From assembly GCF_000620125.1 (NCBI RefSeq), contig NZ_JHVL01000013.1, positions 1-64,000 on the forward strand: a stretch of 64,000 nucleotides of DNA. The letters run 5' to 3'. The notes beneath the pieces were generated by a model. It was not told the origin of the DNA. It did not search any database and saw nothing but the letters and a program-made list of their open reading frames with translations. Made by a program: the position numbers and the translations under genes. Shown here piece by piece: positions 29,248 through 61,332 of the stretch. The DNA is from Clostridiisalibacter paucivorans DSM 22131 (lineage in GTDB: Bacteria; Bacillota; Clostridia; Tissierellales; Clostridiisalibacteraceae). Numbering within the stretch: the first letter of the stretch is position 1; every line of letters starts with the position of its first letter.

Positions 29248-30606
29248 CTATGCTGTAGCCTCTAATTCATTTGCCTTTTCCATTTCTTTATTCTTTCCAC
29301 TTCCTATTATAAAATGCAATATCAGTCCTACAGCCAATCCCCAAGCAGCTCCTTTGGTAGCTAGTACAGCACCCATAACTCCAGCCAATCCCTTTTCTTC
29401 ATTTGTTTCAGTATATTGCATGGCTATCCTAGTACAAACAAATCCTTGAACTAATAATGTCAAAGATAGTGCAATAGGCAATACAGGCTTTAACAATGAC
29501 ACTATGGGCATTAATGAAACACCTATAAAACTAGCTATTCTAAAACTTCCAAATCCTCCATATATAGAATCCATTTGATGCCTTCCCTCTTTATACCTTT
29601 CACTAACAGCTGCTGTCACTGCAGCCCATAAGGGTCCACATAATGTGGCATAGGGAACTATTATAGATTGAATGATATTTCTAGCACCACTTATAAGATT
29701 AGATCTATTGGAGTCAAAGTCTATCTTTTCATCTTTTCTGCTTTCATTTGCTTCATTTATCAATGCTTTACTAGTTATAAAGTCTCCAAAGGCTATTATA
29801 TACACTACAATTACCATAGGTAATGCAGCTATAAATATATCAACGCCTGGAAAGCCTATGCCCAATGGGCTTATGGTCTTTATAACTTCTCCAAATCTAG
29901 GCACAAATATTTCCCACTGTATATTTGGTACTGGTATTTCTTTTACTAAAACACCTATAAATAAAGACACTATTATAGCTGGTACCATTCCATATTTGCC
30001 TAAATATGACAATATATTAGATTTCACCTTTATACTCTTAAACTTTGCTGAAAATAAAATATAAAATGACAATAACCCCCCTAATGCTATAGAAATAGGA
30101 AATTCACCAAATCTTCCTCCTATGCCCATTTCCCCTGTTATAGCAGCAACACCAGCACCCAATAATATACCAGCTTTCATTGAATTGGGAATCCAGTTTA
30201 TTATTTTTCCAGCTAAACCTGTTATCCCCATTATTACAAACAATACTCCCACTAATAATTGTAATGCTATTAGTGCATGTATTCTATCTGGGCCCATTTT
30301 ATATTGTCCTAAAAACCCTAAAATCAATGGCAATGCTGGAGTTATCCAGCCTGGCACAACAGGATCTCCCATTAAAACATGTAGGTTATAAAACAATCCA
30401 TTTATTATAACCATTGTTAAAGCCACCTCAAAAGAAAATCCTAGAGTCTCAGTCATAACAGGTATCGCACCTAGACAAGTTGCACAAAGTAAGAGTCCTT
30501 GCCAAATTTCAGGCATTTCTATTTTATAGTGTATAAATGGAATTCTTATTTTAAATATTCCAAATGGAATATACGGTTGCTCTTCACCATTTTTTCTTCC
30601 TTTCAT
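29248..30606 (-). CDS. Multi-spanning permease of the 4-hydroxybutyrate operon (NCS2/SLC23-like)
   Basis: A 452-residue membrane protein with about 12 hydrophobic segments. The overall pattern (PEIWQGLLLCATCLGAIPVM, a repeated glycine-rich half such as AGILLGAGVAAITGEMGIGG, and a re-entrant-like GFPGVDIFIAALP) resembles the xanthine/uracil–ascorbate (NCS2) or sulfate permease superfamily fold. I cannot assign a substrate by motif. It is the last gene of the abfD–NifU–Cys-rich–abfT run, starting 19 bases after the abfT stop, so it may import 4-hydroxybutyrate or a related acid or export a product (inference from position). The start ATG 30606 follows GAGGGGG. No clear terminator hairpin follows its stop. 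Confidence 0.7.
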   Translation of the reverse strand: MKGRKNGEEQPYIPFGIFKIRIPFIHYKIEMPEIWQGLLLCATCLGAIPVMTETLGFSFEVALTMVIINGLFYNLHVLMGDPVVPGWITPALPLILGFLGQYKMGPDRIHALIALQLLVGVLFVIMGITGLAGKIINWIPNSMKAGILLGAGVAAITGEMGIGGRFGEFPISIALGGLLSFYILFSAKFKSIKVKSNILSYLGKYGMVPAIIVSLFIGVLVKEIPVPNIQWEIFVPRFGEVIKTISPLGIGFPGVDIFIAALPMVIVVYIIAFGDFITSKALINEANESRKDEKIDFDSNRSNLISGARNIIQSIIVPYATLCGPLWAAVTAAVSERYKEGRHQMDSIYGGFGSFRIASFIGVSLMPIVSLLKPVLPIALSLTLLVQGFVCTRIAMQYTETNEEKGLAGVMGAVLATKGAAWGLAVGLILHFIIGSGKNKEMEKANELEATA

Positions 30607-30624
30607 AAATATATCCCCCTCATT

Positions 30625-31914
30625 TTATTTAAATCGCTTTGCAAACTCATCTTTTAACTCATCTCTAAAATTAGGATGAGCAATATTGATAAGGGCCTTA
30701 GCTCTACCTCTCAATGTCTTCCCCCTTAAATCAGCTATACCATATTCAGTAACAATATAATGAACATCATTTCTTGAAGTAGTAACTGCAGAACCCTTAT
30801 TTAAAAATGGTACTATTCTTGAAGTCTTGCCTTTCCTTGCTGTGGAAGGTATGGCTATTATAGATTTCCCATCTTTGGCCATACTAGCACCTCTAACATA
30901 GTCAACCTGCCCCCCAGTCCCACTAAATTGATTTAATCCTATACTTTCAGAAGATATTTGTCCCATTAAATCTACTTCTAGGCATGAATTAATGGAAATC
31001 ATCTTATAATTTTGTGCAATGATTACAGGATTATTTACATAGTCCACAGGATATAGTTCCACAGATGGATTATTATCAATAAAATTATAAAGTCGTCTCG
31101 TCCCCATCATGAAAGTAACTACCATTTTTCCTTTATGAATAGTTTTGTTCCTATTTGTTATTACACCTGCCTCAACAAGGTCTACAACTCCATCAGAAAA
31201 CATCTCTGAATGAATCCCCAAATCTCTTTTATCCTTTAAAAACAATAATACAGCATCGGGGATTGCCCCTATTCCCAATTGTAATGTGGATCCATCATCA
31301 ATAAGAGCAGCACAGTTCTCTCCTATTGCCCTTTCGATATCACCTATTTTAGGTGCATTAAGCTCTATGAGCTCTGTTGAATTTTCAACTATATAATCCA
31401 TATTAGACACATGTATAAAATTATCACCTAAAGTTCTTGGCATCTTATCATTGACCTCTGCTATTACTAACCTTGCACATTCGCTAGCAGGCTTAGTGTA
31501 ATCATTAGATAATCCATAACTACAATATCCATGTTCATCTGGAGTACTTACCTGTATAAGTGCCACATCTACAGGTAAGTAATTATCTGTAAACAACCTA
31601 GGTATTTCATAAAAAAAGCTAGGTGTATAATCTGCCCTATTTTGATTAACTGCCTCCCTAGTAGATCCTCCAACAAAAAGGGCATTATGCCTGAAGTGTC
31701 CTCTCATTTCAGGTTTTGTATATTCACTTTTTCCCATGGCAACCATATGGACAATTTCAACATCTTCGTATTGTTCCTTATTATCTATCATGGCCTTAAC
31801 CAGTTTCGTAGGTTCACTGCATGCATGGCCTATAACTACTCTATCGCCAGACTTTATATTTTTTACTGCTTCATCAGCAGATGTCAATCTATTTTTATAA
31901 ATTCTTTTCCACAT
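30625..31914 (-). CDS. abfT: 4-hydroxybutyrate CoA-transferase
   Basis: A family I-type CoA-transferase (acetyl-CoA hydrolase/transferase), 429 residues. It transfers CoA from acetyl-CoA or butyryl-CoA to 4-hydroxybutyrate, producing the substrate of AbfD. It opens WKRIYKNRLTSADEAVKNI with VVIGHACSEP. The catalytic Glu lies in HSEMFSDGVVDLVEAG, and the oxyanion/CoA loop is FSGTGGQVDYVRGA. The start is the ATG at 31914 after GAGGGGGGAG; the frame extension to 31929 is not needed. It overlaps the small Cys-rich gene by 20 bases. Specificity for 4-hydroxybutyrate rather than another acid is supported by the operon with abfD. Confidence 0.92.
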   Translation of the reverse strand: MWKRIYKNRLTSADEAVKNIKSGDRVVIGHACSEPTKLVKAMIDNKEQYEDVEIVHMVAMGKSEYTKPEMRGHFRHNALFVGGSTREAVNQNRADYTPSFFYEIPRLFTDNYLPVDVALIQVSTPDEHGYCSYGLSNDYTKPASECARLVIAEVNDKMPRTLGDNFIHVSNMDYIVENSTELIELNAPKIGDIERAIGENCAALIDDGSTLQLGIGAIPDAVLLFLKDKRDLGIHSEMFSDGVVDLVEAGVITNRNKTIHKGKMVVTFMMGTRRLYNFIDNNPSVELYPVDYVNNPVIIAQNYKMISINSCLEVDLMGQISSESIGLNQFSGTGGQVDYVRGASMAKDGKSIIAIPSTARKGKTSRIVPFLNKGSAVTTSRNDVHYIVTEYGIADLRGKTLRGRAKALINIAHPNFRDELKDEFAKRFK

Positions 31915-32188
31915 AATCTCCCCCCTCATGCCTTAACATATTTATCTTTTTAAATATATCTTCATAACAATCTCTACTGTCTACTTTTATCTTCCACTGG
32001 CACAAAATTCTATCACTATTTGCACAAGCACTTGTGCACCCACACACTATAATCAACACACCATAATACTCATTTTCTCTAGCTACAAAAAATTTATCTT
32101 CTGTTAATATATCCTTTATATATTTTACAAACCTTTTTCTATTGTATTTGGGATTACAACCACCACAATACTTTATACCTATATTCAC
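31895..32188 (-). CDS. Small Cys-rich protein of the 4-hydroxybutyrate operon
   Basis: A 97-residue soluble protein that I do not recognise by name. It has two cysteine clusters: YCGGCNPKYNRKRF at residues 7–20 and VCGCTSACAN at about 48–57. These six cysteines in CxxC/CxCxxxC arrays suggest metal or Fe–S binding. The CGGCNPxYxR motif appears to be a recurrent family signature in anaerobes (my recollection, not checked). It lies 11 bases after the NifU-like gene and overlaps the start of abfT by 20 bases, so it is translated with them. A role in assembling or repairing the AbfD iron–sulfur cluster is possible but unproven. Confidence 0.8.
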   Translation of the reverse strand: MNIGIKYCGGCNPKYNRKRFVKYIKDILTEDKFFVARENEYYGVLIIVCGCTSACANSDRILCQWKIKVDSRDCYEDIFKKINMLRHEGGDYVEKNL

Positions 32189-32199
32189 ATCATTTCTCC

Positions 32200-32478
32200 T
32201 TATAGAGATTTGTTTAAAATTTTTTTTGCCATATCAATAAGCTCTGGACTCACTTCTCTAGATATAACAACTTCATTGACCCATGGAAACTCTTCCTTTA
32301 ACTTTTGTTCAATAAAATCCTTTGTAGTCATATCAGAATGGGGACACCCACTACATGCACCCAATAATTTTATCCTGACTACTCCATTTTTAACTTCTAA
32401 AAGTCTTACATCCCCATTATGACTTATTAACCTAGGTCTTATTTTTTCTTCAAGTATTTCCTTCACTTTGTCAACCAT
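32200..32478 (-). CDS. NifU C-terminal-domain Fe–S scaffold protein
   Basis: A 92-residue stand-alone NifU-C (Nfu) domain. VRLLEVKNGVVRIKLLGACSGCPHSDMTT contains the CxxC pair that holds a transferable [4Fe-4S] cluster between two subunits. The family carries clusters to apo-enzymes. Position between abfD, a [4Fe-4S] dehydratase, and abfT suggests a dedicated carrier for AbfD. It starts at ATG 32478 and is separated from abfD by ~100 bases containing a long hairpin. The normal Nfu length is about 75–95 residues, so it is complete. Confidence 0.9.
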   Translation of the reverse strand: MVDKVKEILEEKIRPRLISHNGDVRLLEVKNGVVRIKLLGACSGCPHSDMTTKDFIEQKLKEEFPWVNEVVISREVSPELIDMAKKILNKSL

Positions 32479-32577: not shown

Positions 32578-34032
32578 TTATTTTTCTATTTTGGCTATAT
32601 TTTTAGCTAAATCTTTTTTGTGTTCTAAATTACCTTGTCTCCATATCATTACTCTCTGTGCTTGAGGAGACCCTGCTCCATGCATTGATTCTGTTCTATA
32701 TCCTACCGCTGCAGTACCCAGTGTCATATTTTCAATTAATCTTAATATTTTCATACGATCCATAGTAGGTACATTTGCATTACCTTTAAAGTATTTTTCA
32801 CATATGGGTCCTATTTCTGGGTGTTTGAAATCCTTTTCAGATGGCATAGTAACCATTAATCCCCCTGCAATATCTTCAGCTAATCGGGCTATCTCATAAG
32901 GGAATCTCGTAACATTCTGTTTACATATATTCGCCAATAACATATCTATTTGGTAATTCCCCGATTGTGTAGCATAGCCCTCTGAAGAACATGCTATACC
33001 ACAACAGTATAGAGTTTCATTTAGATGCATCATCTCTATAAGTTTATCCTTTATATGAGATGCCTTAGGCACTCCATTATATTCCGCAGCCAATGCAGCA
33101 GCTCCTATTAATACATCACCAACTCCTACTTTACAGCCACCATAACTTTGTCTATGATATCCTGCAAATCTTTCTACTAACATACCTGCAAATTCTGTCT
33201 CTCCATTTAAAAATATTCTCTCATTGGGTACAAAGACATCATCAAATACCACCAATGCCTCTTGCCCTCCAAATTCACTATTACCCACATCCATTTGTAC
33301 ATCTTCTTCCAGCTTTCTAGTATCACATGACTGACGGCCATATATCATGAAAACTCCATCTGCATCTGTAGGTATAGCAAAGGACACAGCATAATCTTTG
33401 TCATCGGGTCCCATCGCTATTGTAGGCATGATTAAATGCTCATGGGAATTAATGCTACCTGTTTGATGTACCTTTGCCCCCCTTACTACAATACCGTCAT
33501 TCCTTCTTTCTACTACATGGACAAACATATCTGGATCCTCTTGTTTACTAGGGGCTAAACCTCTATCTCCTTTGGGATCTGTCATTGCTCCATCCACTGT
33601 CCAATCCTTTTGTTGAACCTCTTTCATGTATTTTGTAAAATTCTTATGATAATTAGTCCCATATTTTTCATCTGTTTCATAAGTAGTACTAAAAACTGCA
33701 TTAAAGGCATCCATCCCAACACATCTTTGAAAGCATGATGCCGTTTTTTGTCCCAATAATCTTTGCATTTTTACTTTTTTAACTAAATCTTCAGTACTTT
33801 GATGTAAATGACAGAACCTATTTACCTTTTCTCCTGTTAAATTAGATGTAGCTGTCATCAAATCTTCATATTGTGGATCATGGGCCAATTCATATGTCAT
33901 TGCCACTGAATTAATAGATGGACGAATTATCGGATGGTCTACTGGATTCTCCACCAACTCTCCAAACATATAAACCTTTATGTCTAAACTTCTAAGACTT
34001 TCAATATACTCTTTCCCTGTCATAAGTGCCAT
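32578..34032 (-). CDS. abfD: 4-hydroxybutyryl-CoA dehydratase / vinylacetyl-CoA isomerase
   Basis: A [4Fe-4S]- and FAD-dependent enzyme that dehydrates 4-hydroxybutyryl-CoA to crotonyl-CoA by a ketyl-radical route and isomerises vinylacetyl-CoA. It is 484 residues. The four cluster ligands known for the Clostridium aminobutyricum enzyme (C99, C103, H292, C299) are all present, shifted by one for the initiator Met: C100 and C104 in ASCFQRCVG, H293 and C300 in GYHRQSYGGC. The fold is acyl-CoA-dehydrogenase-like. The start is ATG 34032 behind GGGAGG, although the frame is open to 34071. It is the first gene of the operon, with a sigma-54-type promoter at 34105–34120. Confidence 0.97.
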   Translation of the reverse strand: MALMTGKEYIESLRSLDIKVYMFGELVENPVDHPIIRPSINSVAMTYELAHDPQYEDLMTATSNLTGEKVNRFCHLHQSTEDLVKKVKMQRLLGQKTASCFQRCVGMDAFNAVFSTTYETDEKYGTNYHKNFTKYMKEVQQKDWTVDGAMTDPKGDRGLAPSKQEDPDMFVHVVERRNDGIVVRGAKVHQTGSINSHEHLIMPTIAMGPDDKDYAVSFAIPTDADGVFMIYGRQSCDTRKLEEDVQMDVGNSEFGGQEALVVFDDVFVPNERIFLNGETEFAGMLVERFAGYHRQSYGGCKVGVGDVLIGAAALAAEYNGVPKASHIKDKLIEMMHLNETLYCCGIACSSEGYATQSGNYQIDMLLANICKQNVTRFPYEIARLAEDIAGGLMVTMPSEKDFKHPEIGPICEKYFKGNANVPTMDRMKILRLIENMTLGTAAVGYRTESMHGAGSPQAQRVMIWRQGNLEHKKDLAKNIAKIEK

Positions 34033-34104
34033 TTTAACAACCTCCCTAACATAATTTAATTTTGATATCAAGATAGCTATCTTTTATTCTCACTTAATTA
34101 ATAT

Positions 34105-34120
34105 TGCAATTGATATGCCA
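34105..34120 (-). promoter_or_regulatory. Sigma-54 (-24/-12) promoter of the abfD operon
   Basis: The minus strand reads TGGCATATCAATTGCA. The GG and GC are 12 bases apart, as required, and the match to TGGCAC-N5-TTGCA is close. It lies about 70 bases before the abfD ATG, next to a gene for a sigma-54 activator. Confidence 0.8.
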
Positions 34121-34217
34121 TTTTTTTAACAAAGTTAATTATTTTTTATTTGTCCTCATTAAATGACTGTATTTTCAGTATCTTCATTTAATAAAAAACC
34201 AAAACAAATCCTATATT

Positions 34218-34277
34218 TTCAAAAAACAAAGAGAAATTCGTTGCGATATCGCAACGAATTTCTCTTCGTTTTTTGAA
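34218..34277 (-). terminator. 60-base inverted repeat: terminator of the sigma-54 activator gene and/or activator site
   Basis: Positions 34229–34266 form a perfect 38-bp palindrome. After one mismatch the pairing continues to 34218 and 34277. On the minus strand the perfect part is followed by TTGTTTTTTG, so the RNA hairpin could end the activator transcript. Its centre (34241–34254, TTGCGATATCGCAA) is also the best of three dyads matching TTGC-N6-GCAA. Confidence 0.7.
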
Positions 34278-34322
34278 TTCTTAATATGAAATCATTGAAT
34301 TTAAAGCTATATATACCCTTGT

Positions 34323-34355
34323 TTGCATATATGCATTTTTATTGCATTATTGCAA
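34323..34355. promoter_or_regulatory. Pair of TTGC-N6-GCAA dyads, candidate enhancer sites for the sigma-54 activator
   Basis: TTGCATATATGCAT (34323–34336) and TTGCATTATTGCAA (34342–34355) are dyads whose centres are 19 bases apart, about two helical turns. They lie roughly 205–235 bases upstream of the -24/-12 promoter, within the normal range for enhancer-binding proteins. The same dyad recurs at 34241–34254. Binding by the neighbouring activator is inferred. Confidence 0.6.
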
Positions 34356-34358
34356 CAT

Positions 34359-36119
34359 CTATTTTTCATATTTTTTCCTCTTTCTCACAAATGTAGAAGG
34401 ATCTATGTCTAAAGCCCTAGCAGCATCCCTGACATTACCATATTTTTCATATGACCTCTCTAGCAAATTTTTTTCTACAATGGAAACTGCCCTTTTTATA
34501 GGGATTATATCATCACAGAATTCAAATCTTGGCCTATTCTTTTTATTGAGTATTTTTCTAGGTAAGTCTTTACAATTTATCTCATCGCCACTACTCATTG
34601 CTGTTATTCTTTCTATAACATTTTTTAGTTCCCTTACATTTCCTGGCCATTGGTAGTCATAAATAGCATCCATAACATCTCTGGCTAAAGATTTATTCCA
34701 TCCATATTTTTCGTTTATATTCATTAAAAAATATCTAGTCAATTCTATTATATCCTGCTTTCTCTCTCTAAGTGGAGGAATATTTATAGGAATTACATTT
34801 AATCTATAAAATAGATCTTCTCTAAATAGCTTCTGTTTTACCATCTTTTCTAAATCCCTATTAGTGGCAGAAATTATCCTCACATCTATCTTTATGGATT
34901 TCACTCCCCCAACCCTTTTGACTTCATTTTCTTGAAGTACCCTCAAAAGTTTTACCTGCATATTTAGTGGCAATTCTCCTATCTCATCTAAAAATAAGGT
35001 TCCTCCATTAGCAACCTCAAAAAGTCCCATCTTTCCATCTTTATTTGCACCAGTAAATGCCCCTTGTTCATATCCAAAGAGTTCAGATTCTATTAGATTT
35101 TCTGGTATAGCACCACAATTTACTTTTATAAATGGCTTTTCAAGTCTGTTACTATTCTTGTGTATGAATTTGGCCACAACCTCTTTTCCAACTCCACTTT
35201 CACCAAAAAGTAATACTGTAATATCAGTTATTGCCGCCTTTTTAGCACGATAAAGAATATCTAACATTTTTTTATCCTTTACCACAAGACCTGATGTGTC
35301 TAGATATTGATTTTTTAGTTCTTTAATCTCCCAATAATATTTTTCAGCTAACTTTTCCTGTACTTGCAGTTCACTTTTTAGTTTATACAGCTCAGTGACA
35401 TCCCTTACATTAGTTATCACTATAATTATATTTCCTTTTTCATCAAATACTGGTCTACTGGTAATCAATGCCTTCTTCCCTGTCTTAAACTCTTGATTTA
35501 AAGAAATAGTCTGTCTTTTCTCTATTGATAAAAGAGAACCTGACTTTGATATATAACCCTCTTTCACAAGGTCTTTCATATTTCTATCAATTAGATTCGC
35601 CCTTTTCAGCCCTGTTATTCTCTCATATGATTCATTAACTCTGATAGTTTTTCCTTTTCCATCTGTAATATATATCCCATCATAGGAATACTCTATAGTT
35701 CTATCCAATCTTTTAGATAACTTTCTATTAATTTCTAGCTCCTTTAATATCTTTTCAAAGGAAGTTATATCTTGAAATAAGATAGTAGCTCCCCATAATT
35801 TGTCATCTATTCTCAACGGAATAAAATCATATATTAGTAATTTCCCTTTATACCTGATTTTCTCTTTATATATACTATTAAATTCTTTCAATATATTTTT
35901 CTCTATTCTGAATTTTTCAAATATATCTGAGATATGACTATCTTTCACATCATACTTGTCAACCCCCAATATCTTTAAAGCCGTCTTATTAAAACATGAT
36001 ATAATTCCATCCTTATCAATTGTAACTATCCCATTGCTGGAAGATTGTATTATTGTTCGAAGTTTTTTAAGTTCATATTGTATTGATAATTTATCTGCAT
36101 TACTCTCGCCCATCCCCAT
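34359..36119 (-). CDS. Sigma-54-dependent transcriptional activator with two PAS domains
   Basis: An enhancer-binding protein of 586 residues. PAS domains lie at about 20–125 and 142–250 (ATILFQDITSFEKI; ITNVRDVTELYKLK mark their ends). The AAA+ domain spans 280–520 with Walker A GESGVGKE at 306–313, the sigma-54 contact loop GAFTGA at 353–358, Walker B GGTLFLDEIGELP, and the arginine-finger region LFREDLFYRLNV. A Fis-type HTH ends the protein (NVRDAARALDIDPSTFVRKR, 562–581). The start is ATG 36119 after GGAGGGGG. It has no receiver domain, so it probably senses a small molecule or redox state through PAS. It lies directly beside the abfD operon, its likely target, with the liv operon on the other side as an alternative. 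Confidence 0.94.
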   Translation of the reverse strand: MGMGESNADKLSIQYELKKLRTIIQSSSNGIVTIDKDGIISCFNKTALKILGVDKYDVKDSHISDIFEKFRIEKNILKEFNSIYKEKIRYKGKLLIYDFIPLRIDDKLWGATILFQDITSFEKILKELEINRKLSKRLDRTIEYSYDGIYITDGKGKTIRVNESYERITGLKRANLIDRNMKDLVKEGYISKSGSLLSIEKRQTISLNQEFKTGKKALITSRPVFDEKGNIIIVITNVRDVTELYKLKSELQVQEKLAEKYYWEIKELKNQYLDTSGLVVKDKKMLDILYRAKKAAITDITVLLFGESGVGKEVVAKFIHKNSNRLEKPFIKVNCGAIPENLIESELFGYEQGAFTGANKDGKMGLFEVANGGTLFLDEIGELPLNMQVKLLRVLQENEVKRVGGVKSIKIDVRIISATNRDLEKMVKQKLFREDLFYRLNVIPINIPPLRERKQDIIELTRYFLMNINEKYGWNKSLARDVMDAIYDYQWPGNVRELKNVIERITAMSSGDEINCKDLPRKILNKKNRPRFEFCDDIIPIKRAVSIVEKNLLERSYEKYGNVRDAARALDIDPSTFVRKRKKYEK

Positions 36120-36219
36120 AAAATAACCCCCTCCCATTTTTAATAATAACACAAAAAAATGATTCTAAAAACAAATATCCCGATTGTTGGCAACTATAAA
36201 ACTTATTAAAATATAAAAA

Positions 36220-61294: not shown

Positions 61295-61332
61295 TAGAAC
61301 AAAATAATAACGGTAGCTTAAGCTACCGTTAT
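61295..61332 (-). terminator. Terminator of the transketolase operon
   Basis: A perfect 26-base palindrome (ATAACGGTAGCTT and its complement, 61307–61332), followed on the minus strand by TATTTTGTTCT, 20 bases past the stop. Confidence 0.9.

Follow-up and report, generated by a model that had tools for sequence, protein, structure and literature searches.

The window (the whole 64,000-nucleotide stretch of DNA analysed here) carries on its minus strand a gene for a XanR-like σ54-dependent activator and, downstream of it, an operon containing an abfD-like gene. Three putative activator dyads of the form TTGC-N6-GCAA, a long inverted repeat and a match to a σ54 promoter lie between the two. In the direction of transcription the features are:

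34359..36152, minus strand: σ54-dependent activator, XanR-like, with an AAA+ Sigma54_activat domain (PF00158, 1.5e-73), PAS and HTH_8
34342..34355, minus strand: upstream activator dyad 1 (putative), exact TTGC-N6-GCAA, 3 bp past the activator stop codon
34323..34336, minus strand: upstream activator dyad 2 (putative), one mismatch
34218..34277, minus strand: predicted intrinsic terminator of the activator gene, 28 RNA pairs, 4-nt loop, U-run in the 3′ arm
34241..34254, no strand assigned: upstream activator dyad 3 (putative), TTGCGATATCGCAA, at the exact centre of the terminator hairpin
34106..34120, minus strand: σ54 promoter match TGGCATATCAATTGC, by the −24/−12 consensus given in section 6 of PMC6615313
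32578..34032, minus strand: abfD-like gene, of 4-hydroxybutyryl-CoA dehydratase type as judged from gene order and assigned by Pfam to the HpaB family
32200..32478, minus strand: NifU-like gene of the same operon
31895..32188, minus strand: hypothetical gene of the same operon, no Pfam match
30625..31929, minus strand: CoA-transferase gene of the same operon
29248..30606, minus strand: permease-like protein of 452 aa, last gene of the operon, with a sub-threshold Pfam match to MFS_MOT1 (18.4 bits against a 30-bit cut-off)

The Fis-type HTH of the activator terminates in STFVRKRKKY. No NCBIfam equivalog cut-off was reached by the activator among the best 25 matches listed. The locus resembles those of the XanR group of clostridial σ54 activators, for which Table 1 of Nie et al. 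(2019, PMC6615313) gives the target order abfD-nifU-hyp-ach: an activator with AAA+ and Fis-type HTH domains adjoins an abfD-nifU-hyp-CoA-transferase operon with a σ54 promoter and upstream sites, the match to the XanR target being one of gene order and protein family. That paper places most sites 100–250 bp from the promoter; at the window locus the distance from the centre of dyad 3 to the promoter match downstream is 127 bp, inside this range.

The likely start of the abfD-like gene is the ATG at 34032, which has GGGAGG upstream, and not the TTG at 34071 of the mechanical open reading frame; many abfD relatives align from about residue 14 onward, and some earlier. Between the promoter match and this likely start, in the presumed leader, AAGATAGCTATCTT at 34070–34083 is a 14-bp perfect palindrome. 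Relatives of the permease-like protein are found directly behind a like activator in L022 (50% identity over 101 aa), in L048 and, by eye, in L053, L066 and L070. From loci where abfD is not the next gene, four neighbouring gene fragments were compared with Pfam; three belong to the families of aldehyde dehydrogenase, iron alcohol dehydrogenase and CoA-transferase, and one has no Pfam match. This last fragment (L048) shares 51% identity over 146 residues with the product of the final gene of the window's operon. The neighbours at these loci would fit a 4-hydroxybutyrate-type pathway, and the permease-like protein is a candidate for transporting 4-hydroxybutyrate or an acid related to it.

The inverted repeat had been described in an earlier note as a 38-bp palindrome without a loop, stretching to 60 bp with one mismatch. 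Direct inspection of the sequence confirmed both dimensions: 34229–34266 is a perfect 38-bp palindrome, and 34218–34277 is a 60-bp inverted repeat in which 29 of the 30 pairs are complementary. By comparison, the longest palindrome per copy in 30 second-order Markov copies of the window measured 14–20 bp. The lone imperfect pair, 34228/34267, is A-C on the plus strand and G-U in RNA of the activator strand, so the activator-strand RNA hairpin is unbroken. The T-runs claimed for both strands are also present, a terminator scan giving the hairpin a T-tail on each, and the dyad said to lie exactly at its centre is there as the exact copy TTGCGATATCGCAA. The second-longest palindrome in the window, at 61307–61332, is perfect and 26 bp long.

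Perfect palindromicity was considered as a special feature of such elements and rejected, as 6 of 19 activator terminators are loopless compared with 36 of 138 control terminator-like hairpins (p 0.40; the controls come from the same genome, are counted per strand and include the plus strand reading of the window's own hairpin). A loopless palindrome is thus in itself ordinary in this genome. By eye, the window's hairpin alone among 17 aligned has a fully self-complementary six-base centre. No support was obtained for a cruciform role of 34218–34277. A known RNA family was likewise rejected: all 12 Rfam matches up to an E-value of 1 in 33900–34500 fall far under the gathering scores and are mostly to microRNA-precursor models, and the long perfect hairpin accounts for them.

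On the activator strand the repeat has the properties of an intrinsic (Rho-independent) terminator, namely a stable stem-loop and a 3′ U-run on the transcribed strand. The folded minus-strand RNA (86 nt) has a predicted energy of −40.8 kcal/mol (z −11), and none of 200 shuffles was equally stable. The hairpin (34277–34218) is preceded by the co-directional stop codon at 34359–34361 and followed by the σ54 promoter match at 34120–34106. With this stem and T-tail, in a fitting place and on the fitting strand, 34218–34277 looks like a strong intrinsic terminator, which agrees with the earlier suggestion that it can end the activator transcript. Among the open reading frames of the window no plausible plus strand gene is directed at the hairpin, and the plus strand T-run is therefore probably best explained as complementary to the A-run with which the U-run pairs.

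Whether TTGC-N6-GCAA is the site of the activator was assessed on collected homologues of abfD and of the activator, by comparing the stretches 3′ of the activator stop codon. Regions were accepted where the activator homologue had at least 42% identity over at least 200 aa, reached query residue 587 and had at least 120 bp downstream; after dropping duplicates by their first 100 bases, 65 distinct regions from loci L001–L130 and L176–L192 remained. A dyad with at most one mismatch is present in 43 of the 65 and absent from 22. The regions hold 31 exact dyads, where shuffling gives 0.81 on average, and 91 dyads with at most one mismatch, where it gives 11. Occurrence of the dyad follows the recognition helix of the neighbouring activator: regions with a helix of the form [SA]T[FLY][VT]RK[RK] carry it in 36 of 42 cases and those with other helices in 7 of 23 (Fisher p about 1e-5, kinship ignored). 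The dyad is thus repeated within the region and tracks the HTH of the activator, as looked for in a XanR-like site, and this comparison of sequences makes it likely that TTGC-N6-GCAA is the site of the activator.

The whole genome contains 17 exact TTGC-N6-GCAA sites. Within about 0.5 kb on each side of the 15 that lie outside the locus no match to the σ54 pattern was found, and 12 of these 15 fall within open frames of at least 100 codons. On these grounds a genome-wide regulon of the dyad was rejected, and a single locus is the best reading of its target.

A recognisable terminator precedes the σ54 promoter in 27 of the 43 dyad regions, with none detected in the other 16 by the T-run-based method. 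These 27 terminators comprise 13 that are centred on a dyad, 7 that hold two dyads and 7 that lie apart from the dyads; in these calls L180 is entered as separate despite a two-mismatch dyad in the loop of its terminator, and L029 is entered among the two-dyad cases despite a hairpin that is nearly dyad-centred. Chance expectation was estimated by keeping the dyads fixed in place and shuffling the remainder 200 times. The 13 centred terminators compare with a null mean of 0.24 (maximum 2) at a stem score of at least 10 and of 2.2 (maximum 6) at a score of at least 7, the related genomes in these counts not being independent of one another, as judged from the activator tree. Terminators holding two dyads number 6 against a mean of 1.95 (maximum 6) at the higher threshold and 7 against 2.4 (maximum 6) at the lower one; two-dyad hairpins were rejected as a class of selected terminators clearly beyond chance. 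Downstream of the activator stop in L111, L112 and L114, a single terminator with a T-run is built from two dyads that face each other and whose six-base spacers are exactly complementary. No dyad lies at the centre of any of 137 other terminator-like hairpins in the genome sample.

Conservation of pairing versus core among relatives had been proposed in the earlier note as a check, with a hairpin kept around a different core as the sign that only terminator function is selected. By this check the idea largely stands: of the 27 terminators, 13 are centred on a dyad, with pairing and core kept as the stems turn over, and 7 more hold two dyads, but in the other 7 regions the terminator stands apart. 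Six of the 42 similar-helix regions lack a dyad with at most one mismatch (L049 from Clostridium drakei, L064, L182, L184, L187 and L188), and four of these (L049, L184, L187 and L188) have a terminator with another core, so that in those lineages the check went against the idea. Terminators with unrelated cores are also present in L089, L091 and L093, where the helix is different, and under the T-run rule no terminator coincides with the extended-arm dyads of L048, L116, L130 and L181. Fusion of terminator and site, as read from these alignments, is common but not universal among relatives. On a tree of 63 activators (L022 and L027 left out as too short, L029 labelled nested) the nested label needs 10 changes against 15.2 with shuffled labels, showing that the nested state is clustered but mobile.

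Stem turnover was followed in an alignment of 17 hairpins drawn from 18 extended-arm dyads, with L116 left out as too near the stop codon for the frame and L115 contributing two rows. The stems undergo compensatory change: double-sided changes occupy 65 cells against 17.8 in shuffles, a count reached by none of 500 shuffles, and covariation scores 0.848 against 0.10–0.18 for slid partners. The count of pairs with double changes is in itself not unusual, 57 of 500 shuffles having reached the observed 9 of 13. The core, by contrast with the turnover of the stems, is kept, with T10, T11, G12 and A22 invariant and three of the four dyad pairs hardly varying. Paired cells make up 98.2% of the alignment; because the rows were selected for extended pairing, this share is not independent evidence. 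Stem turnover with a kept core is independent evidence.

Read on a single strand, a DNA palindrome would be expected to decay into G-U and A-C pairs about equally often. For the 18 extended-arm dyads the activator strand shows 18 G-U, 5 A-C and 3 other imperfect pairs, and the 75 other dyads have 13 G-U, 14 A-C and 38 others. A one-sided sign test on the 18 G-U among these 23 G-U and A-C pairs of the extended-arm dyads gives 0.005, with kinship and the T-rich 3′ arm ignored. This excess of G-U on the activator strand makes it likely that the RNA hairpin on that strand is under selection. The window's single imperfect pair is of the G-U kind on the activator strand.

We put at about three in four the probability that 34218–34277 is a fused terminator and enhancer site. 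One short element would appear to do two jobs, because many relatives alter the stem and keep the dyad; the proposal of the earlier note that a single element acts in RNA to terminate and in DNA as the activator's site is supported by the 13 centred terminators against 0.24 expected and by the kept core. In the proposed mechanism, RNA of the activator strand would fold into the long hairpin with its U-run and the activator transcript would end there. Termination would keep transcription of the activator gene from running into the σ54 promoter about 100 bp further on, and so may insulate that promoter. The tip of the hairpin, TTGC-N6-GCAA, would act as DNA as the promoter-proximal of three dyads bound by the Fis-type HTH of the activator, and the bound activator would loop to σ54-RNA polymerase at 34106–34120 and activate the 4-hydroxybutyrate-type operon. 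An evolutionary route can also be envisaged, in which a dyad-symmetric site that already self-pairs had its arms lengthened and a T-run added. Such a site being a small hairpin from the outset, this may have been an easy step.

The same layout might instead form a coupled switch, in which activator at the core alters termination, as a roadblock or through blocked elongation, or polymerase arriving from the activator gene evicts the activator, either of which would feed back on the end of the regulator's mRNA or on the neighbour. Such a reading is invited by the position of dyads 1 and 2 in the transcribed 3′ region and of dyad 3 in the terminator, an order that recurs, for example in L025 and L006, and five loci of a second activator family (below) have a terminator dyad behind a stop-codon dyad. 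Economy alone nevertheless accounts for the layout, and at 14 of 17 loci inspected no dyad is present in the 400 bp before the approximate start of the activator gene; we consider a coupled switch unlikely. That the element is purely a terminator, with the dyad-like centre a matter of chance or a relic and the activator using just the two dyads near the stop codon, also seems quite unlikely. The hairpin is strong and has its U-run, two other dyads are present at the locus, and the separate terminators in 7 of 27 regions, together with the four similar-helix relatives that have a terminator and no dyad, are what this explanation would lead one to expect. It does not account for 13 centred terminators where 0.24 are expected, for a core that is kept while stems turn over, or for the absence of the dyad from all 137 control hairpins. 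A binding site only, with an extended DNA palindrome that improves binding without termination, is very improbable: a DNA palindrome alone would also yield covarying arms, and 4 of the 17 extended-arm regions have no terminator on the dyad by the T-run rule, but a T-run stands at the stem in the other 13, the G-U bias of the activator strand is confined to the extended hairpins, and the sequence of the arms varies freely.

Terminators are usually seen as punctuation that is neutral to regulators, and enhancer sites are regarded as plain DNA. The RocR downstream activating sequence of Bacillus subtilis rocG is, like the putative site of the window locus, a case of a σ54 enhancer in the 3′ region of a gene; it lies beyond its target gene and, unlike the fused element proposed here, is not known to be within a terminator. 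In the AdhR promoters of Clostridium beijerinckii, three activator sites lie upstream of the σ54 promoter, as do the three putative ones at the window locus, and mutation of any one severely impaired activity (PMC7017808). The word "terminator" is absent from the main text of that paper and from the main text of PMC6615313 on the XanR group.

DNA words with a function of their own are already known to build terminators. Uptake signal sequences form terminator hairpins in Neisseria and Pasteurellaceae, often from two closely spaced complementary copies, and Kingsford et al. (2007, PMC1852404) add that palindromic transcription factor sites might be mistaken for terminators. The double-copy terminators described there are resembled here by L010, L111, L112 and L114. 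Uptake words generally number at least 1000 per genome and serve transformation, whereas TTGC-N6-GCAA would be a locus-specific enhancer site of which one dyad makes the hairpin tip. With 17 exact sites in the genome against about 1000 or more copies, an uptake-signal terminator was rejected. Among the matches listed from open-licence full texts, none describes a terminator that contains an enhancer or the site of an activator, and the parts of PMC6060812 (inverted repeats in E. coli) and PMC12316311 that were matched hold nothing for or against a fused element.

The genome has 30 PF00158 matches, 28 of them strong and 25 of these with a readable region. An unsupervised search for a terminator core that recurs nearby was negative overall, p ≤ 0.05 being reached by 2 of 14 own activators and by 1 of 7 from G053, under a T-run rule that missed the window's own hairpin. 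The published TGT-N10-12-ACA dyad is weakly enriched at terminator centres, with 2 of 19 (p 0.07) and, in G053, 2 of 10 (p 0.02), against 2 of 138 controls, all of which come from the window's genome and whose two matches are one palindrome read on both strands.

Comparison across species was more informative, with two activator families giving firmer support. In the L162/L266 family (nine loci), the terminators of L266–L270 are centred on GATGA-N6-TCATC, and a related dyad, which is weak in L268, overlaps the stop codon. Several dyads of this type but no listed hairpin are present in L271, and in the more distant L272–L274 no GATGA-N6-TCATC nesting was found. In the L160/L249 family (17 loci), L258–L264, all of one genus, have a dyad of the TGT-ACA type at a hairpin with a T-run and at least one further such dyad ahead of the nested one; one dyad half is GCA and not ACA in L260, L262 and L264, and the hairpins of L262 and L264 were read by eye, not being picked by the hairpin listing. 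The family's own locus has one nested TGT-ACA dyad, and in L250–L252, L254 and L255 the terminator lies apart from the TGT dyads. In the L163 family nesting was found at its own locus only, and five other loci are without it. Two further activator families thus appear to nest their own dyads in terminators, one of them only in part. A wider and rather doubtful proposal is that an enhancer in the σ54 activator gene's own terminator is a recurrent architecture among these Clostridia, reached repeatedly with unrelated dyads (TTGC-N6-GCAA, GATGA-N6-TCATC and TGT-N10-12-ACA) because it couples the two functions: occupancy by the activator would influence how its own mRNA ends at the 3′ side, and the terminator would shield the promoter-proximal site and the promoter from polymerase.

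If fusion often occurs beside σ54 activators, site finders that mask terminators would miss real sites, and terminator finders could reveal unknown activator motifs. The short element would also offer a clean test of the effect of a bound activator on RNA 3′-end formation.

Two further observations were made behind activator genes of G000. In L153 (contig C29) the loop of a possible terminator holds TGTATATTTTTTATACA, and TGTAAAATTAATTTACA lies nearer the stop codon; both were seen by eye, the loop hairpin not being picked by the hairpin search. In L166 (contig C28) a perfect palindrome of 50 bp stops 4 bp short of a σ54 promoter match; this is too close for an ordinary activator site, and the palindrome is perhaps a terminator abutting the promoter.
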